A stretch of DNA of 64,000 nt, taken from positions 62,001 through 126,000 of the forward strand of contig NZ_BBMP01000026.1 in NCBI RefSeq assembly GCF_000755245.1. The letters run 5' to 3'. The translations under genes and the position numbers were made by a program. Below, piece by piece: positions 3,669 through 42,059 of this stretch. The stretch is from Halococcus sediminicola (GTDB lineage Archaea > Halobacteriota > Halobacteria > Halobacteriales > Halococcaceae). How positions within the stretch are numbered: position 1 is the stretch's first letter; each line of letters starts with the position of its first letter. The notes under the pieces were generated by a model. It was given only the letters and a program-made list of their open reading frames with translations. It made no database searches and was not told where the DNA came from.

Positions 3669-5576
3669 ATGCGCTCGTGGTCGGGGGGCCGGTGGCTCCT
3701 GCCGGTCGTCTTGCTGGCGCTCGTCGCCCACGCCGAGACGCTCGAGTACTGGTTCGTCGCCAGCGACACGCTCCCGCTCGTCGCGACGAGCCGCGTCACT
3801 GACCCGGCCGGGTTCGTCGCGCTGTTCACCCAGCCGCTGATGGCCGGTTCGGATTTCACCACTACTGCGCTGTTCTACCGCCCGGTTTCGACGCTCACCT
3901 ACGCCATCGATTACGCGCTCTGGGGACTGAATCCCGCCGGCTACCACCTCACGAACCTCCTGTTGCACACCGCCGCGGCGGCGCTCGTCGCCGTCTGCAC
4001 AGTACAAATCACGCGCCGGCGAGCGGTCGGCGTGCTCGCTGGCGCTCTGTTCGCTATCCATCCAGTCACCGCCGAGGTCGTCCCCGTGACCGCACGGCGA
4101 CAGGACACACTCCTCACTATTTTCGTCCTGCTCTCGCTCGTCCTGTTCGTCCGCTGGTATCGCGCGACCGCGCCGGCCGAGCGGTTCCCCTGGCGCTGGG
4201 CGAGCCATCGCCCGCTCGGGGGTGCGCTGGTCGCCTACGCGCTCGCTCTCGGCGCGAAGGAGACGGCCGTCGTCGTTCCTGTGATGGCTACGGTGTGGGT
4301 CCTCCTCCATCGTGAGAGCGACCGACCGCGACAGCTCTTCCGAACGCTGTTCGGGACTGTCGGTCCGTTCGCCGCCGTCACACTCACGTATCTCGCGGTT
4401 CGTGTCGCCGTCCTCGACGGTCTCGGGGGCTATCGCGTACCCACGAGCGCGACCCTTCTCGATAGATCGCTCTTCGGCGTGAAGTACCTCCTCTGGCTCG
4501 TCTATCCGCAGAACGCCATCCTGGGGCTGCCGTCACTGCGTGCCGCGGGCACACCGTCGCTCGTCGTCGGCGTCGCCGGCGTGTTGCTCGTCGGTGCGCT
4601 CGTGGTGATGGCGCTGCTGCGGCAGGGCTACTTTCATCGGGGACGGTTCCGCCGGCTGCGGGCGCTCTCGCCGGTTGCGAGCGTCGTCGGGTTCGCGGCG
4701 ATACCGCTCGTGCTCGCCGGCGAGTCGCTCGGGGCGGTTGCGCTGCCCGCAATCGAGAACCCTCTCGGCGGCTATCTCGTCGGCGTGCTGTTCGTCGGGG
4801 CCTGTCTCGCCGGTCTCGCCACCGCGCTGTTCGCGGGGGGCGTCCCGATCGGTGGGAACAGACGTCGACAGTTGGCGTTTTTCGCCTGCTGGGTGCTCGT
4901 GCCGCTCTCGCTGCTCGTGACGCGCGGATTCGTCACGAGCAAGCCGCTGACCTTCGGCTTCGGGATGCGCAACGGCTACCTCGCGGCCGCGCCCGCGATG
5001 GCCGCGCTCGCGCTGGTGGTGGTGCCCTCGCTACGGCGCGTGCTCGCGGCCCTCCGAGACGCGCTTACGGACGAACGCAACTCGGCCCCGAACGCCGGCG
5101 ACATGGCCTGCATCGCCGCCATCGGCCTCCTCCTGTTTCCGGTGCTCGGCGCATCGCCACTCCTGTACGCCGGCGACGGCTGGCGGTCGGCGGGCGATCT
5201 CAACGAGCGCTCGCTGTCGGGACTGGACGACGCGCTCGACGGCGTGTCGGGCGACAAACCGATATACGTCGTGAACTTCCCGCAGGGCTTCGACAACAGT
5301 CACCAACCAACCCCGCACGCCCAGTCGGTGACGCCGCTGCGCCCCTACTCGGTCGAGGCGTGGCTTGAACTCGACGGAATGAGGGACCCACAGGTTCGGT
5401 TCGTCCGGTCGGCGACCGTCTCCGAAATCCCCGAACTCGCTTTCCGAACCGAGGAGCGCGAGCGGTTGACCGCCGTCTGGGTCGAGCGGGCCGTGAACGA
5501 CACACGACTGTCGAGAACGGCGAGCGCGCGGCCAGGTGTGACGAACGTACCGTCGCGCGCGGCGGTGGTGAACTGA
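3669..5576 (+). CDS. Multi-membrane GT-C family protein (TMTC/PMT-like glycosyltransferase)
   Basis: 635 residues with about a dozen hydrophobic segments and a C-terminal extracytoplasmic domain of ~110 residues. The N-terminal third carries the TMTC/PMT pattern: an extracellular loop with a single acidic residue (VASDTLP), then FYRPVSTLTYAIDYALWG and NPAGYHLTNLLLH. Such proteins use lipid-phosphate sugars (for example dolichol-phosphate mannose) to glycosylate proteins or lipids on the outer face of the membrane. No TPR repeats are present, unlike animal TMTCs. It is followed after one base by a paralogue with the same architecture, so the two likely work together. Donor and acceptor are unknown. 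Confidence 0.75.
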   Translation: MRSWSGGRWLLPVVLLALVAHAETLEYWFVASDTLPLVATSRVTDPAGFVALFTQPLMAGSDFTTTALFYRPVSTLTYAIDYALWGLNPAGYHLTNLLLHTAAAALVAVCTVQITRRRAVGVLAGALFAIHPVTAEVVPVTARRQDTLLTIFVLLSLVLFVRWYRATAPAERFPWRWASHRPLGGALVAYALALGAKETAVVVPVMATVWVLLHRESDRPRQLFRTLFGTVGPFAAVTLTYLAVRVAVLDGLGGYRVPTSATLLDRSLFGVKYLLWLVYPQNAILGLPSLRAAGTPSLVVGVAGVLLVGALVVMALLRQGYFHRGRFRRLRALSPVASVVGFAAIPLVLAGESLGAVALPAIENPLGGYLVGVLFVGACLAGLATALFAGGVPIGGNRRRQLAFFACWVLVPLSLLVTRGFVTSKPLTFGFGMRNGYLAAAPAMAALALVVVPSLRRVLAALRDALTDERNSAPNAGDMACIAAIGLLLFPVLGASPLLYAGDGWRSAGDLNERSLSGLDDALDGVSGDKPIYVVNFPQGFDNSHQPTPHAQSVTPLRPYSVEAWLELDGMRDPQVRFVRSATVSEIPELAFRTEERERLTAVWVERAVNDTRLSRTASARPGVTNVPSRAAVVN

Positions 5577-5577
5577 T

Positions 5578-7278
5578 ATGGAGAGGTCGCACAAACTCGT
5601 GCTCGCGGCGGCGCTGGCGTTCGCACTCGGCGTGCTGGCACACGTCGAATCGCTCGGTTACTGGTTCACCTCCTACGATTCGATCGCACTCGTCGAGACG
5701 AGTCGGATCGCCTCGCTCGCCGACCTGCGAGTCATCCTGACGAAACCGCTGCTGTACGGCACCTCCTACGTCGAAGCAGGCCGATTCTATCGCCCGGTCG
5801 TCAACCTCGTCTACGCCGGCGAGTACGCGCTCTGGGGACCCGACCCGCTCGGCTATCACCTCACGAACCTGCTGCTGCACGGACTGGTCGCCGCGCTCGT
5901 CGTACTCACCATCCGCTCGCTGACCGACTCGCTGCGCATCGGGGCACTCACTGGTGCTCTCTTCGCCATCCATCCCCTCGGTACCGACGTCGTGCCGGCG
6001 ATCTCCAGACGGCAGGACGTCCTGCTGGCGCTCTTCGGCCTGCTGGCGCTCTGGCTGTTCGTCGAGAGCGTCCGCCGAGACAGCAGACGACTGCGCGCGG
6101 GGGCGGCCGTGGCCTACGCGCTCGCGCTGCTCTCGAAGGAACCCGCCGCCGTCGTCGGCCCACTCGCCTTCCTCTGGGTGCTGCTCGACGGCCCCTCACT
6201 CCGCCGTGTCTCGACGTATCGCCGGGCCATCGTCGCGGTGTCCCCGCTCGCGGCCGTCGCGGGAGCCTATGTACTAGTTCGCTTTGCGGTGCTCGGCGGC
6301 GTCGGCGGCTACACGCACGACCCGCCGCTGGCTCAGACACTGCTCTTCCCGGTCGAGTACGCCCTCTCGCTCGTCTATCAGGCCGACGTCCTCGCCGCCA
6401 TTCGGGATTTCTCGGTACCGCTCGTCGTCATCGTCGTGGCCGCCGCCCCGTTCGCGCTCCTCCTGTCGTTCGCCCGCGAGCGCTCGCCCGACGACCTCAC
6501 TCCGCGTCACGCCCTTCCGATCGTCCTCGCGGTCGCCGGGTTCGGCGCGCTCGTCGTCGCCGTTCGGTTCCCGAGTGCTTCGCCACTCTCGTCGGTCGAA
6601 AGCGTCGAGCACGTCGGCTGGTACACCGCCGGCATCGTCTTCATCGTCGCCGCCACGAGCGCGCTGGTGGGCGCACTCGCCTCGACACGCGCACTCGACA
6701 CCCGCCGCTCGACGGGGTTTTTCGTCCTCTGGCTGCTCTCGCCGCTTCCCCTGTTCTTCCTCGCCCGGCAGTTCGCCTTTCGGGACGCGTACTTCTTCGC
6801 CATCCCGCTGCTCGCGCTGGCCGCGACGTATCTCGACGGCGCGCTTCCCTCCCTCAACGAGTGGCGCTTGGTGGGGCGCGACACCGACGCGCTGGTGGTC
6901 GCCGCCGTGGTCGTCCTCCTGCTCCCCTCGCTCGCGGCGTCGCCGCTCGTCCATACCGACACGGGCTGGGGCGCGACGAGCGACGTCTCCCGGTCGGCAC
7001 TCGCCGAAATCAACGATTCGGTGAGTGGGGTCGATGCCGACACGCCCGTCGCCGTCGCCGGGATTCCGACGAAACTCGATGCCCATCCCAAACGGCTCGG
7101 GCAGGCACACAAGGTGACCATGCTCCAGCCACACTCGGTCCGATCGTGGCTGCGGCTACAGGGCCACGAGAACCGGGTCGCGTTCGGCCGGTTGCAGTCG
7201 TTCGAGACCGCCCCACGAAACGTCTCGGTGCGGACGCGGGAGAACGGACGACTGCTGGTGTGGCTCCGCTACGAGTGA
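5578..7278 (+). CDS. Second GT-C family multi-membrane protein, paralogue of the upstream gene
   Basis: 566 residues. It shares with its neighbour the loop TSYDSIALVETSR, FYRPVVNLVYAGEYALWG, PLGYHLTNLLLHG and GALFAIHPLGTDVVPA, plus a C-terminal outside domain with LQPHSVRSWLRL (compare LRPYSVEAWLEL in the other copy). The two proteins clearly arose by duplication. ATG 5578 starts one base after the TGA (5574-5576) of the first gene, so they are one operon and translation is probably coupled. Predicted role is lipid-linked-sugar-dependent glycosyl transfer at the cell surface; which polymer is modified cannot be seen. Confidence 0.75.
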   Translation: MERSHKLVLAAALAFALGVLAHVESLGYWFTSYDSIALVETSRIASLADLRVILTKPLLYGTSYVEAGRFYRPVVNLVYAGEYALWGPDPLGYHLTNLLLHGLVAALVVLTIRSLTDSLRIGALTGALFAIHPLGTDVVPAISRRQDVLLALFGLLALWLFVESVRRDSRRLRAGAAVAYALALLSKEPAAVVGPLAFLWVLLDGPSLRRVSTYRRAIVAVSPLAAVAGAYVLVRFAVLGGVGGYTHDPPLAQTLLFPVEYALSLVYQADVLAAIRDFSVPLVVIVVAAAPFALLLSFARERSPDDLTPRHALPIVLAVAGFGALVVAVRFPSASPLSSVESVEHVGWYTAGIVFIVAATSALVGALASTRALDTRRSTGFFVLWLLSPLPLFFLARQFAFRDAYFFAIPLLALAATYLDGALPSLNEWRLVGRDTDALVVAAVVVLLLPSLAASPLVHTDTGWGATSDVSRSALAEINDSVSGVDADTPVAVAGIPTKLDAHPKRLGQAHKVTMLQPHSVRSWLRLQGHENRVAFGRLQSFETAPRNVSVRTRENGRLLVWLRYE

Positions 7279-31597: not shown

Positions 31598-32470
31598 ATG
31601 CATTCAGTCGTTCTGACCAAAGGCGTACCCGATTTCCGCGAGGGACAGGTAGCGTTCGACGAGGACGGTCATCTCGAACGGGGCAACACCCCGACGGTGA
31701 TGAACCCGAACGACAAACACGCGCTGCGGACGGCGCTCCAGACGAAGGTCCGTCACGGAGGCCAGTTGAGCGTGATGAGCATGGGACCACCGGGCTACGG
31801 TGACGTGCTCGGCGAGGCGATGGAATCGGTCTACGCCGACGACCTCTATCTCCTCTCGGACCGCGAACTCGCGGCCTCGGACACGTGGGCGACGGCCATC
31901 ACGCTCGCCACGGGATTGCAGAAACTCGACGAAACCCCCGATCTCGTCTTTGCGGGCTTCAAGACCGCCGACGGCGAGACCGGCCACACGGGTCCGCAGG
32001 CGTGCTGGTGTCTCGACTGGCCCATCATCACGCACGTGGTCGCGCTCGACGTCGACGAGGATGAAGAGACGGTGCGGGCGAAACGACTCGTCGAGGGCGA
32101 CATCGAGGAGATCGAAACCGTCGAAGCGCCGATGCCGGCGTTCATCGTCGCCGATCCCGAATTCGAACCCACCTATCGGAAGGCCGCCCATCGACTCACC
32201 CTGAAGGACCTCCGAGCGGAGACGAAAGAACGCGCCGAAAACCACGAGGAACTCATGACGACGTGGAACCACGAGGACCTGAACCTCGACCCGGACTACA
32301 TCGGGCTGGACGGCTCGCCGACCATCGTTTCGTCGGTCGACCCGATTCCGAAAGCGCCCGCCGAGCGCGAGGCGACGATGGTCGATCCCGGTGATGGCGA
32401 GGGGATGGGCGAGGTGTTCGACGCGATGGAACCGTTCGCAGGCGGGCGAACAGGGGCGGCGGGTGACTGA
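31598..32470 (+). CDS. Electron transfer flavoprotein beta subunit (FixA/EtfB)
   Basis: 290 residues. Marks of EtfB/FixA: MHSVVLTKGVPDF, MNPNDKHALRTAL, LSVMSMGPPGYGD, DLYLLSDRELAASDTWATA, and DLVFAGFKTADGETGHTGPQ, which binds the adenine nucleotide. In Fix-type ETFs this subunit holds the bifurcating FAD in place of AMP; which applies here needs structure-based alignment. It is followed 3 nt later by the alpha subunit, then FixC, forming one electron-transfer unit. Confidence 0.93.
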   Translation: MHSVVLTKGVPDFREGQVAFDEDGHLERGNTPTVMNPNDKHALRTALQTKVRHGGQLSVMSMGPPGYGDVLGEAMESVYADDLYLLSDRELAASDTWATAITLATGLQKLDETPDLVFAGFKTADGETGHTGPQACWCLDWPIITHVVALDVDEDEETVRAKRLVEGDIEEIETVEAPMPAFIVADPEFEPTYRKAAHRLTLKDLRAETKERAENHEELMTTWNHEDLNLDPDYIGLDGSPTIVSSVDPIPKAPAEREATMVDPGDGEGMGEVFDAMEPFAGGRTGAAGD

Positions 32471-32473
32471 CTC

Positions 32474-34480
32474 ATGACTGATGATATCGACCCCGGCGAG
32501 CACACTGTCGAACAGTTGCAGGACGAGTTGGCGAACATCGACAGCCCGCGCGAACTCGAAGGGTTGCTCGACGCCGAAAAGGACGGCGAGCAGCGACAAT
32601 CGGCCCAAGAGGCGATTCGCGCCCGGATGCGCGCGGTGAGCACCGACGAGGACACGGCAATCGAGGAAGGGACCGAAACTGAAGGCGAGTATCGCGAGTC
32701 GGCCGACGAAATCGAGGGCGAAGCGGACGAAGGGGAAGGCAGTGCGGACGAGACCGGAGACCTCGCCCTCGATCCGGGTGAGTACGACATCGCGGAGTTC
32801 GGTCCGGCGATCAAAGACATCGACGACCCCGCCGAACTTGAGGCGATTCTCGACGCCGAACAAAGCGGTGAGAACAGGGACAACGTCAAAACGCTCGTCG
32901 AAAGTCGCATCGAGAAGGTGAGCGAAAGCGACGCCGACGAGGACGACGACATCGACCCGACCGACCTCTCGACGGCCGAACTCGGCAACGCCCTCCAGGG
33001 CATCGACGACATCGAGCGCTTGCAAGACGTTCTCGACGCCGAACAGGGCGGCGAGGGCCGGAGTGCGGCGACGAACCTGATTCAAAAACGCATCGAGTCG
33101 GTGCAGGAAAATGAGGAACCCGAGGAAATCGAGGTCATACCCCCTGAAGAGAAACACCCTGACCTCGACCACCCGACGGCGGACAAACAGTACGTCAAAG
33201 CGCTCGAGGATGGTATTTATCGGGACATGTGGGTCTACTGTGAGACACAGGCGGGCGACCTCATCGACGTCTCGAAGGAGATGCTCGGGAAGGCCCGCGA
33301 GTTGATGGATACCTACAACGACGACTACGGGGTCTCCGCGAGCGAAGCGAGCGGAGGCTCGGAAGACGAGCAGAGCGAGTCTTCCGGCGCCGACGAGCGT
33401 GTGGTGGCCGTCCTCATCGGTAGCGACGTCGAAAAACACGCCGCGGACGTCATCGCCTACGGGGCTGACGTGGTGGTGTATCACGAAGACGACAGATTGG
33501 ATAGATTCCAGCACAAACCCTACACCGAACTGTTCTGTGACATGGCGCGCGCGGGTGCGACCCCCGGCGAGAGCCGCGGGAGCGAAGCGGAGGTCGACTG
33601 GCGCGACTACGACGAACCCCGCTATACGGTGTTTCCGGCGACGAACAACGGGCGAGACCTCTCGGCGCTCGCACAGGGCGAACTCGATTCGGGGCTGGCC
33701 TCGGACTGTTCTGACCTCTACATCGAGGAGGCGATGATCTCGAACCCCGCGAAGACGGGTCGGCCGGGCGCGAAAAAGGAGTTCGAGCGCGTGCTCCACA
33801 TGAAGCGCCCGGACTTCTCGGGGTTCGAGTATTCGACCATCCTCTGTCTCGACAACCCGACGAGAGAATTTCACCCACAGGGCGCGTCGGTGATCCCGGG
33901 GAGTTTCGACCTGCCGGAGCCCGATCACGACCGGGAAGGTGAAGTGATCGAACACGACCTCGAACTGGACGAGGAGTGGCTTCGAGTCTCCGTGACCGAC
34001 CACGACCGACTGGACGAGGGCGTCGACCTCACCGGTCACGACGTGGTGGTGGCGATGGGCCGGGGCATCGGCGACGATCCCACCGAGGGGATGGAACTCG
34101 GCATCGAACTCACCGAAACCTTCGACGACGCCGGACTCGGCGTCTCGCGTGGGATCGTCACCGGTTCGTACGAGTTCGACGGCCACGTCGAGCGCTACAC
34201 CGCCGAGGAGCGCCAGATCGGCGAGACCGGACAGGTCGTTGAACCCGATCTCTACATCGCCGCTGGGATTTCGGGGGCCGTCCAGCACAAAGTCGGGATG
34301 GACAACTCGGGCACTATCGTCGCCATCAACACCGACCCCGACGCGCGCATCCGGGACTTCTCGGATTACTTCGTCGAGGGCGACCTCTTCGAGGTACTTC
34401 CGGAACTCACGGCGGCGCTGAAGGCGGGCGAACTGAGCAGCGACGAGATCGCGGCCGATGGAGGGAACAACGATGACTGA
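32474..34480 (+). CDS. Electron transfer flavoprotein alpha subunit (FixB/EtfA) with triplicated N-terminal repeat
   Basis: 668 residues, about twice the usual EtfA. Residues about 11-55, 105-149 and 166-210 are three copies of a ~45-residue motif (ELxxxLxxIDDPxELExxLDAExxGExRxx...IExR), joined by acidic linkers. The EtfA domain starts near 240. A Ser/Glu/Gly-rich insert (about 287-305) in it coincides with two DNA hairpins. The FAD domain is intact: AMGRGIG, RGIVTGSYEF, QIGETGQVVEPDLYIAAGISG, AINTDPDARI. It transfers electrons with EtfB to FixC. The repeat region may dock partners; no function is known to me. Confidence 0.92.
   Translation: MTDDIDPGEHTVEQLQDELANIDSPRELEGLLDAEKDGEQRQSAQEAIRARMRAVSTDEDTAIEEGTETEGEYRESADEIEGEADEGEGSADETGDLALDPGEYDIAEFGPAIKDIDDPAELEAILDAEQSGENRDNVKTLVESRIEKVSESDADEDDDIDPTDLSTAELGNALQGIDDIERLQDVLDAEQGGEGRSAATNLIQKRIESVQENEEPEEIEVIPPEEKHPDLDHPTADKQYVKALEDGIYRDMWVYCETQAGDLIDVSKEMLGKARELMDTYNDDYGVSASEASGGSEDEQSESSGADERVVAVLIGSDVEKHAADVIAYGADVVVYHEDDRLDRFQHKPYTELFCDMARAGATPGESRGSEAEVDWRDYDEPRYTVFPATNNGRDLSALAQGELDSGLASDCSDLYIEEAMISNPAKTGRPGAKKEFERVLHMKRPDFSGFEYSTILCLDNPTREFHPQGASVIPGSFDLPEPDHDREGEVIEHDLELDEEWLRVSVTDHDRLDEGVDLTGHDVVVAMGRGIGDDPTEGMELGIELTETFDDAGLGVSRGIVTGSYEFDGHVERYTAEERQIGETGQVVEPDLYIAAGISGAVQHKVGMDNSGTIVAINTDPDARIRDFSDYFVEGDLFEVLPELTAALKAGELSSDEIAADGGNNDD
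33334..33386. repeat. Two in-frame hairpins inside etfA
   Basis: CTCCGC/GCGGAG (33334-33356) and CGGAAGAC/GTCTTCCG (33360-33386), each with an 11-nt loop of the form GAG-N5-CGA (TCG-N5-CTC on the other strand), the same loop size and end bases as the intergenic repeat hairpins. They encode a low-complexity VSASEASGGSEDEQSESS insert. Probably a repeat element tolerated in the reading frame. Confidence 0.6.
34460..34464 (+). promoter_or_regulatory. Shine-Dalgarno site choosing the fixC start
   Basis: GGAGG ends 8 nt before ATG 34473, inside the end of etfA. An in-frame ATG at 34458 is upstream of this site, so 34473 is preferred. Confidence 0.5.
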
Positions 34481-36146
34481 GAACTACGAACACTACGAGG
34501 CGGTGGTGGTCGGCGCGGGACCGGGCGGCGCGGCGGCGGCCGCGACGCTCGCACGCAACGGCGTCGAAACCGTGGTACTGGAGCGCGGCGTCGATGCCGG
34601 CGCGAAGAACGTTTCGGGGGGACTCATCTACGCCGAGGAGTCCGCACCGTACACCATCGATGGGCTCCTACCGGGCTTTCGCGAACACGCGACCGAACGC
34701 CCGGTGACGGACTACTACATCCACAACATCGCCGGCGAGAAGGTCAAGACCTTCGACATCACACGGGGTCACGAGCAGGACACCGAGTGGGCCGATGCAG
34801 TCCTGCGCCGGAAGATGGACTCGTGGATGGCAGAGCAGGTCCACGAACTCACCCGCGAGACTGGCGGTGGCCTGCTCACTGAAGTGACGGTCGATGGGTT
34901 GCTGCGAGAGAACGGCGAGATCGTTGGCGTCACCTGCGAGGAACTCGACCCCATCAGAGCCGACTTCGTCGTGGCCGCCGACGGCGTGAACTCCGAACTC
35001 GCCCGGGAGGCGGGGTTGATGGACTGGGAGGAACCTGACGAGTGGTTCCAGGGTGTCAAAGCGGTCGTCGACATGCCCGGCGACGTCATCGACGAGCGCT
35101 TCGACATCGCCGAGGACGAAGGCGAGGCGCACCTCTTCTCGGGCGACCTCTACGACGATGTTCGTGGCGGGGGCTTCCTCTACACCAACGAAGATTCCCT
35201 CTCGATCGGGAACGTCTTCCACCTCGACAGCATCGTCGCGGAGGGCGCGGAGGTCCAGGACCTGCTCGACGCACTTCTGACGCACCCGCTGCTCGCCCAG
35301 TGGCTCGGTGACGAGTACGACGAACGGGAGTATTCGGCCAAACTCGTCCCCGACTCGAAGAAGGCCGCCAACCCCTCGCCCCACGAGGGCCGACTCGTCC
35401 TGGTGGGAGATGCGGCCGGGCAGATGCAGGCACAGGGCCCCATCATCAAGGGGATGAACCATGCGGTGACGGCCGGTGCACTCGCCGCGGAGGCGTTCGT
35501 CGAGGCGCGCTCGCGCGGAAAGCCCGACTCGGCGGGCAAGCGCTACGAGCAGCGCCTGCACGACGAGGGCGTGATGGGCAAACTCCGCCCCACCCGCTAC
35601 GAGGTGGCGAGCGCGGTCGGCGAGAACGACACGGCCACCCGCATCGCCGAGCGCGCACTCGATTCCTCGCTCGGGCACGTCGGCATGCGCGTCGCCGACA
35701 GGGGCGGCCTGCTCGGGCGGGCCTACGGCTCGCCGTATCTGGCGACGATGATGCCCGACACGAAGACGCCGTACGTCTCCTTACCCACTGCCATCGCCGA
35801 AACGCTCGGAACGGAAATCGACGCCGTGAACGATATCGAACCCCCGAGTCTCGAAGAGCGCATCGGTGAGTTGACCTACGACACCGACGTGGGCAACCCA
35901 CATATCACGCTTGACGACAACTCCTTCGAAGCGAGCGGCGCGGCCGTGACGGCCTGTCCGGTGAGCGCCGCGGACTTCGGCGGCGGCTGCTATCGCGAGG
36001 AGACCGTCCAATCGAACGGCGACGAAAAGCGCGTCGTGAGCCTCGACACCCAGCCCTGCGTCGAGTGTGGTACCTGCGCCGTCGTCGCCGACACGCAGTG
36101 GGAACATCCCCGTGGCGGGAAGGGCGTCGAGTTCCGCGACGGATAG
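34473..36146 (+). CDS. ETF-quinone oxidoreductase FixC with fused FixX-like ferredoxin domain
   Basis: 557 residues from ATG 34473, overlapping the etfA end by 8 nt. N-terminal FAD motif VVVGAGPGGAAAAATLARNGV, the ETF-QO segment VSGGLIYAEE, and GDAAGQMQAQGPIIKGMNHAV for FAD binding. The last ~80 residues read as FixX: TACPVSAADF, then QPCVECGTCAVVADTQWEHPRGGKGVEF, supplying four or more Cys for a [4Fe-4S] cluster. It would take electrons from EtfAB and pass them to menaquinone at the membrane. The FixC-FixX fusion mirrors mitochondrial ETF-QO. Confidence 0.93.
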   Translation: MTENYEHYEAVVVGAGPGGAAAAATLARNGVETVVLERGVDAGAKNVSGGLIYAEESAPYTIDGLLPGFREHATERPVTDYYIHNIAGEKVKTFDITRGHEQDTEWADAVLRRKMDSWMAEQVHELTRETGGGLLTEVTVDGLLRENGEIVGVTCEELDPIRADFVVAADGVNSELAREAGLMDWEEPDEWFQGVKAVVDMPGDVIDERFDIAEDEGEAHLFSGDLYDDVRGGGFLYTNEDSLSIGNVFHLDSIVAEGAEVQDLLDALLTHPLLAQWLGDEYDEREYSAKLVPDSKKAANPSPHEGRLVLVGDAAGQMQAQGPIIKGMNHAVTAGALAAEAFVEARSRGKPDSAGKRYEQRLHDEGVMGKLRPTRYEVASAVGENDTATRIAERALDSSLGHVGMRVADRGGLLGRAYGSPYLATMMPDTKTPYVSLPTAIAETLGTEIDAVNDIEPPSLEERIGELTYDTDVGNPHITLDDNSFEASGAAVTACPVSAADFGGGCYREETVQSNGDEKRVVSLDTQPCVECGTCAVVADTQWEHPRGGKGVEFRDG

Positions 36147-36520: not shown

Positions 36521-37150
36521 TCAGTCCCGTGCGCGCCAGCGCCCGCCGAGTTCCGTTCGGTCGTAGTCGTCGAACGCGCCGTCGATGAAGACCGTCACGC
36601 GACCGTTCTCCTCGCTGAGCGTGACGGTTGCGACCACGTCGTCGCGCAGCGAGGTGTCGAGCGCGCTCATGTGGCGCGACCCCATCCAGTCGGCGTAGGC
36701 CATCGGACCGCCGTTTCGCTCTTCGAGCGCCGCTCGACTGGGGTCTTTGAGTCGGACCATCCGTTCTTGGAGCACGCCGTCGATGCTCGCGACGACCGCG
36801 CCGTCCATGCGCTGAGCGGTCGCCCTCGCCGCCGTGTGGAACGCCTCGATGTCGCCGAAGACGCTCGCACAGCGCTCGACCGGCCAGCGGTTCGCCCCCA
36901 TCGGATCGGCGTACTCCTCGACCGAAGTGCCCGAAACGACGGCCAGATAGAAGCCGGGACCGCTGACGTGTGGCTCGCCCCAGCGGTCGAACTCCAGACT
37001 GATGGCTTCGAGACAGTAGCGCACGATGTCGACCAGTTCCTCGACGCGCCGATGGTGGGCGTACGCGATGGTGAGTTCGTCGCGCTCGCGCTCGGCGCGC
37101 TCGTCGTGTACCGGGCGTTCGTCGCCCCGGACGTCGTCTACTGGAACCAT
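36521..37150 (-). CDS. dacZ: Diadenylate cyclase DacZ (c-di-AMP synthase)
   Basis: 209 residues. The DisA_N/DAC motifs are DGAVVASIDGVLQERMVRL (DGA motif) and GSRHMSALDTSL (RHxSA motif), in the expected order and spacing. It makes c-di-AMP from two ATP; in haloarchaea c-di-AMP is linked to osmotic balance and DacZ is reported essential in Haloferax. The frame continues far upstream inside the neighbouring transporter gene, but ATG 37150 gives the family's usual length. It overlaps the end of the APC-UspA transporter gene (stop at 37138) by 13 nt, so both are made from one message. Confidence 0.92.
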   Translation of the reverse strand: MVPVDDVRGDERPVHDERAERERDELTIAYAHHRRVEELVDIVRYCLEAISLEFDRWGEPHVSGPGFYLAVVSGTSVEEYADPMGANRWPVERCASVFGDIEAFHTAARATAQRMDGAVVASIDGVLQERMVRLKDPSRAALEERNGGPMAYADWMGSRHMSALDTSLRDDVVATVTLSEENGRVTVFIDGAFDDYDRTELGGRWRARD

Positions 37151-39612
37151 CGGCGAAGCGAGTAGCGGGCCCGTGAGGATAGCCCTTCGTTGCGTTTCGC
37201 TATCAGTACCGTGTCCTCGGCCGCGCGCGCCACCTCCTCGGGAATCGCACCGAAGACGAACTGCTGGAGCACGCCCTCGCGGGTCGCGCCGATGACGGTC
37301 ATGTCGTGTGCACCCGACCGGTCGGTGATGGCGTCGAGCACGTCGTCGTCCTCGACGACGGTGGTCTCGACCGTGACGCCGTGCTCTTCGAGGCGCGTCG
37401 CGGTCTCCTCGGCGCGCTCGCGTGCGTCGTCGGCGTCGCCGTTCGGTGGGACGACCCGAAACACCTCCGCGTGCGCACCCGTTGCCCGACAGACCGCCCG
37501 GCATATCTCGGCGCTGAGGTCGGCGTGTGGGCCGCCGGCGGTCGGCAGCAACACCGACTCGAGGTCGCCGGTCGCATCCGAACCGAGGCGCTCGACGAGG
37601 ACGTCGCAGTCGGCCTCGGCCGCTATCGTGTCGACGACGCTGCCGAAGACGATTTCGCGGCGGCGCGACCCTCGTGATCCCCAGCCCATGAGCACGGCAT
37701 CCGTATCGTACTGTGTGATAGTGTTGAGGATGGCCGATTCGACGTCGTGGCTGATGCGGATCGTCGCGCTGATCGGGACCTCGGTGTCGTGGGCCTCGAT
37801 CGTCCCGTGGAGGTCGTCGCTCTCGTCGGCATCGACCTCTATTTCGGGACCCGTGTCCGCCCCGCCGTCGGCCCTCGTGTTCAGGGCTCGCCGGAGCACC
37901 TCGCGCTCCTCGTCGACGTACTCGCTGCCGCGCGACAGCGGCGTCTGTTCCGGCACCTCGACCACGCTCATCGCGAGCACCTCCGCACCCCGGTCGGCGG
38001 CGACGTCGGCAGCCGTCCGGAGGAGCTGGTCGACGTTCTCGGGGTTGGCGATCGGCACGAGCACCTGTTCGTCGCGGTCGGTCGGACTCCGCTGGGAGAC
38101 TACTGTGGGTGTCTCGCGTTCGATCTCCTCGGTCGACGGCGAGCGTCCCTTCCACGCGAGCCAGAAGGCGACGCCGATCCCCTCCACGATGAGTCCGAAG
38201 ATCACGGTTCGAAGGCCGAGACTCGCCATCAGGACGACGTTCAACACCGCCCCGAGCGCCGGGACCCACGGGACGAGCGGGACCGTGAACCCACGGTCGA
38301 GGTCGGGGAACTTCCGTCGGGAGGCGATCAGCGCGACGTTGACGACCGCGAACCCAGCGAGTAACAGGACGTTGGCGACGCTCGTGACGCCTTCGAGACC
38401 GAGATGCACGCCGAACAGGGGGAAGCCAGCCAGCGCGTGAATGGCGCTCGCCTCGCCGCTGCCCGGTGCTTCGCCGAAGACGAACGTGAACAGCAGGATG
38501 AACACTAAAATGAACCCGCCGGTGAGCAACACCGACTTGTAGGGGGTACCGTAGTCGGGGTGGAGCTCCTCGAACTGTTTGGGCAGGTGGCCCCGGCGGG
38601 CGAGCGCGAGCTTCACTCGCGAGCCGGCGAGGATGGTGGCGTTGGCCGCGCTGATCATCGAGAACAGCGCGCCGCCGATGATGACGTAGAAGCCGGCGGA
38701 GCCGAGGTAGTACTGGGCGGCGTACGCCATCGAGACCTCGCCGTTCTGGGCGACGTACTGTGTCGGACTCAGCCCGCCGAGGTCGGTGTTCGACGCCAGA
38801 AACGAGAGGAACTGGCCGTCGTTGATCGCGACGACGATGACGACGACGACCAGCGCGTAGAAGCCGATGACGACGAGCATGCTGATGTAGAGCGCGCGCG
38901 GAATGGTCGTTCCGGGCTCCTTGATCTCGTCGGCGTTGGTCGCGATCGCCGAGAAACCGACGAACGTGATGAACACGAGCGCGCTCGTCGAGCCGATGCC
39001 GACGATGTTGCCGACGTTGTCCGCGAACGACGTCACCACGACGTCGGCCTGGAACGCCTGGAGTCCGCCGTAGAGAAACAGCACCAACAACAGGAGCTTG
39101 GCCGCGGTGACGACGATCTGGAACTGGCTCGACTCCTCGCTCCCCCGGCTGTTGATGAACACGAGGAGACCGAGCACCGCGACCCCCGGCAGCCAGTACG
39201 GGATCGACTGCGGGATTCCTACTAACGGGTAGATGAATCGGTAGAACCAATCGGAGAAACTCGCCAGATAGAACGCCGCGCTCGCCGGGTAACCGACGAT
39301 CATCGTCCAGCCCATGATGTACGTCCAGTTGGATTTGAACGTCTCGAAGACGTACATGTAGCCGCCGCCGCTCTCGAAGTATACCGAGGAGAACTCGGCG
39401 TAGGCTGCCGCGGTGAGCGCGGCGATGAGCGCCGCGAGGACGAACGAGAGGATGGCCGCCGTACCGACGTTCGAGACCGCGAGGCCCGAGAGCACGAAGA
39501 TGCCCGCGGCGATCATCGTCCCGATGCCGATGGCGAGCGCCCCTAAGAGGCCGATGTTGCGGTCGAGTTCCGTCGAGACGTCGTCGGAGTCGGCGGCTGC
39601 CGCGTCACTCAT
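37138..39612 (-). CDS. APC-superfamily amino acid/cation transporter with two C-terminal UspA domains
   Basis: 824 residues. The N-terminal part (about 1-470, 12 membrane helices) has LGALAIGIGTMIAAGIFVLSG and AYAEFSSVYFESGGGYMYV, typical of the CAT/APC amino acid permeases. Then two Usp-like domains: first from about DEQVLVPIANPENVDQLL, second from about ESVLLPTAGGPHADLSAEI to TVLIAKRNEG. KimA, a c-di-AMP-controlled K+ importer, has a related APC plus Usp-like layout. With DacZ overlapping downstream, nucleotide control of this transporter is a reasonable guess. Substrate unknown: amino acid, osmolyte or K+. Confidence 0.88.
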   Translation of the reverse strand: MSDAAAADSDDVSTELDRNIGLLGALAIGIGTMIAAGIFVLSGLAVSNVGTAAILSFVLAALIAALTAAAYAEFSSVYFESGGGYMYVFETFKSNWTYIMGWTMIVGYPASAAFYLASFSDWFYRFIYPLVGIPQSIPYWLPGVAVLGLLVFINSRGSEESSQFQIVVTAAKLLLLVLFLYGGLQAFQADVVVTSFADNVGNIVGIGSTSALVFITFVGFSAIATNADEIKEPGTTIPRALYISMLVVIGFYALVVVVIVVAINDGQFLSFLASNTDLGGLSPTQYVAQNGEVSMAYAAQYYLGSAGFYVIIGGALFSMISAANATILAGSRVKLALARRGHLPKQFEELHPDYGTPYKSVLLTGGFILVFILLFTFVFGEAPGSGEASAIHALAGFPLFGVHLGLEGVTSVANVLLLAGFAVVNVALIASRRKFPDLDRGFTVPLVPWVPALGAVLNVVLMASLGLRTVIFGLIVEGIGVAFWLAWKGRSPSTEEIERETPTVVSQRSPTDRDEQVLVPIANPENVDQLLRTAADVAADRGAEVLAMSVVEVPEQTPLSRGSEYVDEEREVLRRALNTRADGGADTGPEIEVDADESDDLHGTIEAHDTEVPISATIRISHDVESAILNTITQYDTDAVLMGWGSRGSRRREIVFGSVVDTIAAEADCDVLVERLGSDATGDLESVLLPTAGGPHADLSAEICRAVCRATGAHAEVFRVVPPNGDADDARERAEETATRLEEHGVTVETTVVEDDDVLDAITDRSGAHDMTVIGATREGVLQQFVFGAIPEEVARAAEDTVLIAKRNEGLSSRARYSLRRWFQ

Positions 39613-41316: not shown

Positions 41317-41703
41317 ATGTCCGATCACCCACTCCGCACGCTCGAAGCAGTAGTATTAGTCGCCATCGGCGGGTTCGCGGGGTCGAACCTGCGCTATTTC
41401 GTCGCCAGAGTGCTTCCGGGCGCGGGCGGAACGCTCCTCGTGAACGTCGCCGGGAGCTTCGCGCTCGGATTCCTCCTCTACGAGGCGCTGTATTCGAACA
41501 TCGTCACCGAACGAGCGCGACTGGTTCTCACGACCGGCTTCCTCTCCTCGCTGACGACCTACAGCACCTTTGCGCTCCAGACGGCGCTACTCGATTCACC
41601 GATCTGGATGCTGGCGAACGTACTCGTGACCTACGCGCTCGGCTTTTCGGGCGTGCTCGCCGGCCGCGTGCTCGCCCGGCGCGTCGATGGGGGGAGTCGA
41701 TGA
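41317..41703 (+). CDS. crcB: Fluoride channel CrcB/Fluc, first of a tandem pair
   Basis: 128 residues, four membrane helices. Family marks: IGGFAGSNLRYFVARV (the conserved Arg), LLVNVAGSFALGFL (channel Asn), and TTGFLSSLTTYSTFALQ (the Phe/Thr track). Fluc proteins are dual-topology dimers that let F- leave the cell. Archaea and Gram-positives often have two genes that form a heterodimer. This one overlaps the second by 4 nt (ATGA). I saw no fluoride riboswitch motif in its 100-nt upstream region. Confidence 0.93.
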   Translation: MSDHPLRTLEAVVLVAIGGFAGSNLRYFVARVLPGAGGTLLVNVAGSFALGFLLYEALYSNIVTERARLVLTTGFLSSLTTYSTFALQTALLDSPIWMLANVLVTYALGFSGVLAGRVLARRVDGGSR

Positions 41704-42059
41704 CCGCGCTCGACCCGGCCCACCTCGTCGGCATGGGCGGCGCGCTCGGCGCGCTCTGTCGGGCCTACGTGAGCCAGCGCTTTGAGGGTGAGTATCCCGT
41801 GGGAACGCTCGCGGTCAATATCATTGGAAGTTTCGCGCTCGGGCTGGTGACGTTCGTGGGTGCGGGCGAAGAGGTGATACTGCTCGTGGGGACCGGTGCC
41901 TGTGGCTCCTTCACGACCTTCTCGTCGTTCTCGTTCGAGACCGTACGATTGATCGAGGAGGACGATCTGACAGCGGCGGCCGCGAACGCGCTCGCCAATC
42001 TCCTCGGGGCGCTCGCGGCCATCGGTCTCGCGTGGCTTCTGACTCGTGCGGTCGGCTAA
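41700..42059 (+). CDS. crcB: Fluoride channel CrcB/Fluc, second of a tandem pair
   Basis: 119 residues from ATG 41700, four membrane helices. Same motifs in this copy: MGGALGALCRAYVSQRF, LAVNIIGSFALGLV and GACGSFTTFSSFSFETV. The 4-nt overlap with the first crcB implies coupled translation and a heterodimer with opposite membrane orientation. The stop overlaps the stop of tmcA (other strand) in the bases CTAA at 42056-42059, leaving no space for a terminator between them. Confidence 0.93.
   Translation: MTALDPAHLVGMGGALGALCRAYVSQRFEGEYPVGTLAVNIIGSFALGLVTFVGAGEEVILLVGTGACGSFTTFSSFSFETVRLIEEDDLTAAAANALANLLGALAAIGLAWLLTRAVG

Follow-up and report, generated by a model that had tools for sequence, protein, structure and literature searches.

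DAC2, a probable second haloarchaeal diadenylate cyclase family, and its overlap with an APC-Usp transporter gene in Halococcus sediminicola

Introduction

Among the closest described systems to the gene analyzed here is DacZ of Haloferax volcanii (HVO_1660), an active diadenylate cyclase (DAC). A single DAC has been described in H. volcanii, a dacZ–mscS2 operon has been stated for all halobacteria, and the archaeal targets of cyclic di-AMP (c-di-AMP) were still to be identified (Braun et al. 2019; PMC6741144). The representatives of DacV, DacW and DacX given there are methanogens or unnamed Euryarchaeota, and DGA is described as the catalytic motif of DACs (PMC6741144). In bacteria, TrkA/KtrA RCK proteins are known c-di-AMP receptors (PMC12453120). 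Here we analyzed a DAC-fold gene that lies in a 64,000-nucleotide stretch of the Halococcus sediminicola genome (contig NZ_BBMP01000026.1, or C26, positions 62001-126000; hereafter the window) and that overlaps the gene for an APC-family permease with tandem C-terminal Usp domains (hereafter APC-Usp). We use DAC2, a label coined in this analysis, for the family of the window gene.

Like DacZ of H. volcanii, DAC2 is haloarchaeal, adopts the DAC fold and carries the DGA motif, with R-H-M standing in for RHR. Unlike DAC2, DacZ carries a DACZ_N domain, shares an operon with mscS2 and is near-universal among genomes of the class Halobacteria, whereas DAC2 has no DACZ_N domain, is patchily distributed, is often plasmid-borne and sits in varied neighborhoods. 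No second haloarchaeal DAC is described in the excerpts of the literature searched (including PMC6741144, PMC8646023, PMC8305020, PMC11434293 and PMC10927574). Many plasmid copies of DAC2 are named "diadenylate cyclase" by NCBI automatic annotation, and thus the assignment as such is not new to annotation pipelines. A classification of DACs by Galperin in 2023, which reportedly comprises 22 families, may already include DAC2.

Results

DAC2 is a DAC-fold family distinct from DacZ

The initial annotation named the window gene dacZ, a name that did not hold. Its product (P0001) has no DACZ_N domain (PF19294) and scores 24.1 bits against the Pfam DAC profile (PF02457), below the cut-off of 27. 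A canonical DacZ (P0003; 285 aa), with DACZ_N at 175.4 bits and DAC at 73.0 bits, is encoded elsewhere in the genome, at G000:C26:51535-52389, outside the window and ~46 kb from the DAC2 gene. The canonical dacZ is followed by an mscS gene (locus L001), whereas the partner of the window gene is the overlapping APC-Usp gene. P0001 and P0003 are 30% identical over 79 residues. DAC2 is a second haloarchaeal DAC family, consisting of a DAC domain with one leading helix. Among the five DAC2 members scanned, Pfam DAC scores ranged from 23.4 to 28.8 bits, with two exceeding the cut-off.

A structure model of DAC2, built from 58 sequences, had a mean predicted local distance difference test (pLDDT) score of 86.5. 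Its top 40 structure matches were all DAC-domain structures (Z scores of 12.8 to 10.9), among them DisA, CdaA/DacA, DacM/CdaM and Bacillus cereus 2fb5, while the next unrelated row scored Z 3.5; a Foldseek search also gave DAC matches. The stand-alone or membrane-linked bacterial DACs (CdaA/DacA, CdaM/DacM and the DAC domain of DisA) aligned with DAC2 over 131 to 140 residues at Z 10.9-12.8, with 15-27% identity over aligned residues, and DAC2 is without the DNA-binding part of DisA. Conservation was read from a family alignment of 58 rows (A1), comprising 60 family members minus L039, L040 and L064 (in-frame stop), plus the window protein. The window DAC2 retains both DGA and R-H-M, the latter within a G-S-R-H-M site that we take to be the counterpart of the RHR motif (Table 1). 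R-H-M in place of RHR is also found in the DacZ of the same genome, which carries G-T-R-H-M.

DAC2 is patchily distributed and often plasmid-borne

DacZ was found in 388 of the 391 class genomes, and in 57 of 58 genomes tested together, all 58 of which have a DAC2 match. DAC2 itself was found in 167 of the 391 class genomes, representing 43 of 86 genera. Outside Halobacteria, a draw of 392 genomes from the phylum yielded weak matches to the DAC2 profile only (18.7-26.8 bits), and a search of 50,697 phage records with P0001 produced no match. P0001 matched 25 plasmid records, all haloarchaeal, of which H23 to H25 match only about half of the query.

Three class genomes have no DacZ (G129, G315 and G376). 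G315 and G376 are fragmented assemblies and are not among the DAC2 matches. G129 is a single contig, 98% complete, with two DAC2 genes that carry DGA and R/K-H-M; a Pfam DAC scan of this genome matched only a DAC2. If c-di-AMP is needed in G129 as it is in H. volcanii, DAC2 must make c-di-AMP, a circumstantial argument. Na_H_Exchanger/TrkA_N genes lie near both G129 DAC2 genes, at ~110 bp in locus L086 and ~1.8 kb in locus L047. The two loci have a GC content of 46-48%.

The DAC2 gene overlaps an APC-Usp gene

Two elements of the initial annotation, the 13-nt overlap and the identity of the neighbor as an APC permease with two Usp domains, were borne out by the minus-strand ORFs and by Pfam, which scores AA_permease_2 at 137.8 bits and Usp, over two stretches, at 80 bits. 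The DAC2 gene starts with the ATG at 37150, inside the 3′ end of the APC-Usp gene (Table 1). Two other Halococcus genomes (G235, locus L033, and G157, locus L034) have exactly the same 13-nt overlap, and in both the ATG at the overlap is the sole possible ORF start. Pairwise Nei-Gojobori comparison of the window gene with L033 or L034 gave a nonsynonymous rate (dN) of ~0.10 versus a synonymous rate (dS) of ~0.40, indicating purifying selection; the closest named relative is that of Halococcus thailandensis (82%). Given the overlap geometry, DAC2 and APC-Usp are probably translationally coupled.

Table 1. Coordinates of the DAC2/APC-Usp gene pair and its features in the window
Feature	Position	Strand	Basis
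DAC2 gene, stand-alone diadenylate-cyclase-fold protein, 209 aa (P0001)	36521..37150	-	ORF, structure model, DAC fold matches
DGA motif, residues 116-118	36797..36805	-	A1: D 58/58, G 58/58, A 53/58
G-S-R-H-M motif, residues 157-161	36668..36682	-	A1: G157 58/58, H160 58/58, R159 R 42/K 16
Overlap of DAC2 and APC-Usp genes, 13 nt; translational coupling expected	37138..37150	-	ORF coordinates, other Halococcus genomes
Permease of the APC family, 824 aa (P0002), with two Usp domains in tandem at the C-terminus	37138..39612	-	Pfam; PDB sequence relatives
AA_permease_2 transmembrane domain, residues 20-463	38224..39555	-	Pfam
First Usp domain, residues 516-673, with a GSRG-X8-GS loop one residue shorter than the ATP motif	37594..38067	-	Pfam, motif check
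Usp domain 2, ~residues 686-806; degenerate nucleotide loop	37195..37557	-	Second Pfam Usp stretch; model m8b4ef66f7ed3

Linkage between a cyclase gene and an APC gene, which had been suggested for dacZ, involves DAC2 instead and is not confined to H. sediminicola: it was found in Halococcus, Halobaculum, Halosimplex and Halorussus. Specifically, a same-strand APC-Usp gene lies directly upstream of DAC2 in the window genome, G157, G235 and G073 (all Halococcus), and likewise in Halobaculum gomorrense (L225), in Halosimplex carlsbadense (L154) and on plasmids of Halosimplex aquaticum, Halorussus aquaticus, Halorussus limi and Halorussus vallis, the DAC2 proteins of the Halosimplex aquaticum and Halorussus aquaticus stretches being identical. 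The junctions show a 13-nt overlap, a 4-nt overlap, an 8- or 14-nt overlap (start uncertain) or a zero gap. In a quick DAC2 tree, calculated after 14 near-duplicate or long-branch rows were left out, the APC-Usp-linked DAC2s fall into two distant groups, and a single clade was rejected (approximately unbiased test, p 1.1e-29). The linked transporters all fall within one orthologous group in a tree that left out two long-diverged rows. Thus, either two DAC2 lineages each became joined to this transporter family, or the pairing is ancient and was lost in most cases.

Usp and cation-transport genes recur near DAC2

We compared 123 distinct DAC2 loci, the nearest relatives of the window or A1, with 40 mid-contig 20-kb control stretches from the same genomes. 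The loci comprised 60 from the class-genome matches, two fetched for APC-Usp linkage and named loci (62 new), with duplicates removed. At 24 of the 123 loci, DAC2 has a Usp domain no more than 500 bp away (1.8 expected), and at 36 it has one within 2.5 kb (5.1 expected). Binomial p values ignore kinship, and clustered counts are safer: with DAC2 clustered at 80% identity, eight of 53 clusters were in the majority near Usp at 500 bp, compared to 0.8 expected. The controls hold six Usp domains in 800 kb, a density in line with the 34 Pfam matches in the 3.76 Mb of the window genome. APC genes occur within 2.5 kb at 11 loci and TrkA_C within 5.5 kb at 10, both with none in the controls, and antiporters occur within 5.5 kb at 14 loci (3.1 expected); the seeds for APC, Trk, RCK and cation:proton antiporters (CPA) were taken from the window or DAC2 loci, so these counts lean upward.

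The annotated neighborhoods of plasmid DAC2 genes covered 21 of the 25 records (all but H7, H12, H13 and H21), with genes counted out to ~6 kb from DAC2 (to 9 kb for H8, 7 kb for H6, and 5 kb for H9 and H16). Genes for cation transport (Trk, RCK, antiporter, MscS, MgtE, NRAMP or Na/Ca) lie near 17 of these 21 DAC2 genes, a count that excludes H24, where a Na/Ca antiporter lies at the edge of the stretch. Trk/RCK genes were found at nine, cation:proton antiporters at 10 and annotated Usp genes at 13; no cation-transport or Usp gene was counted at H1. Several of the plasmid records are near-copies, and therefore these counts are not independent. The clearest case is a Trk K+ island in Halorussus vallis and limi, with genes for Usp, TrkA-N, a hypothetical protein, APC-Usp, DAC2, trkA and trkH, flanked on both sides by a cation:proton antiporter and TrkA_C. 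Four 50-kb control stretches from four of these plasmids contained, in total, one TrkA_C/antiporter/Usp cluster with a nearby Na/Ca antiporter, two P-type ATPases and one MscS.

At some annotated plasmid loci a mechanosensitive channel gene adjoins DAC2. As a general partner mscS was rejected, with MscS within 2.5 kb at one of 123 loci compared to 0.8 expected, a count from one seed that may miss distant MscS. A single universal partner was likewise rejected, as no neighbor family is common to most loci.

The APC-Usp transporter combines a permease with ApcT/CAT-type sequence matches and a Usp tandem

The relatives of the permease in the PDB identified by phmmer are ApcT, CAT and SLC7 chains, with 5oqt and MJ0609 among the relatives; KimA was absent from these matches at E 0.01, with no search made using a KUP model. 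The initial annotation had drawn a parallel with KimA, a KUP family K+/H+ symporter regulated by c-di-AMP. Both are APC-superfamily transporters with a cytosolic nucleotide-type domain, but in KimA this domain has been described as resembling PPAT rather than Usp (PMC10284832), while the window permease matches ApcT/CAT-type transporters in sequence and carries tandem Usp domains.

The model of the Usp tandem (m8b4ef66f7ed3; window 37141-38097) has a pLDDT of 78.9, with low confidence in the putative nucleotide loops. It is closest to tandem USPs (Rv2623, TTHA0350, one solved with ATP, 3ab8), followed by the C-terminal domains of cation-chloride cotransporters (KCC/NKCC) and the prokaryotic 3g40 (Foldseek). 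Cation-chloride cotransporters (SLC12) have an APC-superfamily core and, as in the window permease, a tandem USP-like C-terminal domain; unlike SLC12, the transmembrane part of the window permease is ApcT/CAT-like by sequence. Residues of the Usp tandem that mark DAC2-linked transporters were sought and none was found.

Discussion

The fold, the motifs, the gene overlap, its recurrence and the enrichment of Usp neighbors lead us to propose, with confidence that is about evenly balanced, that DAC2 is an accessory diadenylate cyclase tuning nearby ion/osmolyte transport. DAC2 probably makes c-di-AMP from ATP as an oligomer and, if co-translated with the APC-Usp transporter, would raise c-di-AMP when the transporter is expressed. 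The c-di-AMP could then tune ion/osmolyte transport, upward or downward, via the Usp domains and, in other genomes, via the RCK/TrkA_C domains of neighboring transporters, as the neighborhoods suggest.

Several observations weigh against this proposal. Most DAC2 genes do not adjoin an APC-Usp gene, and many have other neighbors: of 60 loci, 14 carry a DUF790 gene beside DAC2, and 11 of these also have an XPB-type helicase gene nearby. K+ genes within 1 kb of DAC2 are not significantly enriched (5 of 123 loci, 2.8 expected, p 0.15). Within the transporter family, DAC2 does not adjoin 18 of the 24 orthologous APC-Usp genes examined, and two Halococcus genomes (G044 and G252) have the transporter and no DAC2. 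In G073 (L226:7580-8117), DAC2 is frameshifted behind an intact APC-Usp gene, and in Halococcus thailandensis (G235; L033:6877-8031) a large internal deletion affects the APC-Usp gene (384 aa called) and the overlapping DAC2 is intact. Within DAC2, 16 of 58 members have K instead of R at position 159, and five of 58 have DGG in place of DGA. Finally, the c-di-AMP motif of KdpD, (A/G/C)XSXSX2N(Y/F), is present in neither Usp domain of the window permease, and orthologues that adjoin a DAC2 do not differ in their conserved Usp residues from those that do not. The initial annotation had envisaged a self-contained circuit of cyclase and transporter. A DAC-fold protein with catalytic motifs does overlap APC-Usp, as that idea supposed, but the circuit is doubtfully self-contained because a housekeeping DacZ is present and so few of the orthologous transporters adjoin a DAC2.

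The context of the DUF790/helicase loci (for example, L054:6670-8205 and 4488-5924) is DNA-repair-like; the helicase is often on the other side of DUF790.

The alternative that survives best, although we regard it as somewhat unlikely, is that DAC2 is catalytically active as an accessory cyclase and supplies the general c-di-AMP pool, with the Usp tandem binding ATP/ADP for energy sensing and no direct feedback. The similarity of the tandem to USPs that include the ATP-bound 3ab8, and then to cation-chloride cotransporter domains, is consistent with this view, as are a Usp1 loop (GSRG-X8-GS) near the ATP motif, the missing KdpD motif and Usp residues that do not vary with DAC2 linkage. The KdpD Usp domain, a c-di-AMP receptor, is of the same Usp fold family; its motif and the strict ATP motif of UspFG, GX2GX9G(S/T), are both quoted in PMC8214093. 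However, the strict ATP motif is also missing from both Usp domains, Usp2 being degenerate, and supply of a general pool leaves the frequent adjacency of DAC2 and Usp unexplained. Direct c-di-AMP feedback on the putative Usp receptor of the window permease, as first annotated, is possible and so far unsupported by the motif and conservation analyses.

The accessory-cyclase proposal has a stronger form, which we consider quite doubtful: transferable ion-homeostasis cassettes with their own c-di-AMP synthase, in which DAC2 would serve the adjacent transporters, the Usp tandem and neighboring Usp/TrkA_C domains would be archaeal c-di-AMP receptors, and DacZ would supply the cell-wide pool.

We think it improbable that DAC2 binds nucleotides through its DAC fold but lacks cyclase activity, acting as a regulator or an ATP/c-di-AMP sensor, or that it makes another product. 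The limited identity to the DacZ of the genome, Pfam DAC scores around the cut-off and the R159K and DGG variants would fit such a role. On the other hand, the window DAC2 keeps DGA and R-H-M, the DacZ of the genome also has R-H-M, and the DacZ of H. volcanii is active (PMC6741144). In addition, G129 has no other DAC. Similarly low in probability is an overlap with no functional coupling, produced by gene packing or by hitch-hiking within salt-adaptation islands: short overlaps are frequent in compact genomes, one of the four plasmid controls holds a TrkA_C/antiporter/Usp cluster away from DAC2 and the majority of DAC2 loci do not adjoin APC-Usp, but the Usp enrichment holds against the chromosomal control and after clustering, the remaining three plasmid controls list no Usp gene, and two separate DAC2 lineages are paired, in an identical gene order, with one transporter family.

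If DAC2 is indeed a second DAC in about two fifths of the sampled class genomes, the reading of c-di-AMP knock-outs and levels would change for many haloarchaea. The recurring neighbors (Usp, APC-Usp, Trk, RCK and cation:proton antiporter) point to a small set of proteins as candidate c-di-AMP receptors in archaea, and G129, with two DAC2 genes and no DacZ, is a natural experiment on whether DAC2 can fulfil the essential function.

Other genes in the window

Electron transfer flavoprotein genes, followed by a gene for a FixC-like FAD protein, occupy window positions 31598-36146; the FixC-like protein also matches FixX C-terminally, an apparent fusion. Two neighboring, overlapping CrcB genes (fluoride channel family) lie at 41317-41703 and 41700-42059.

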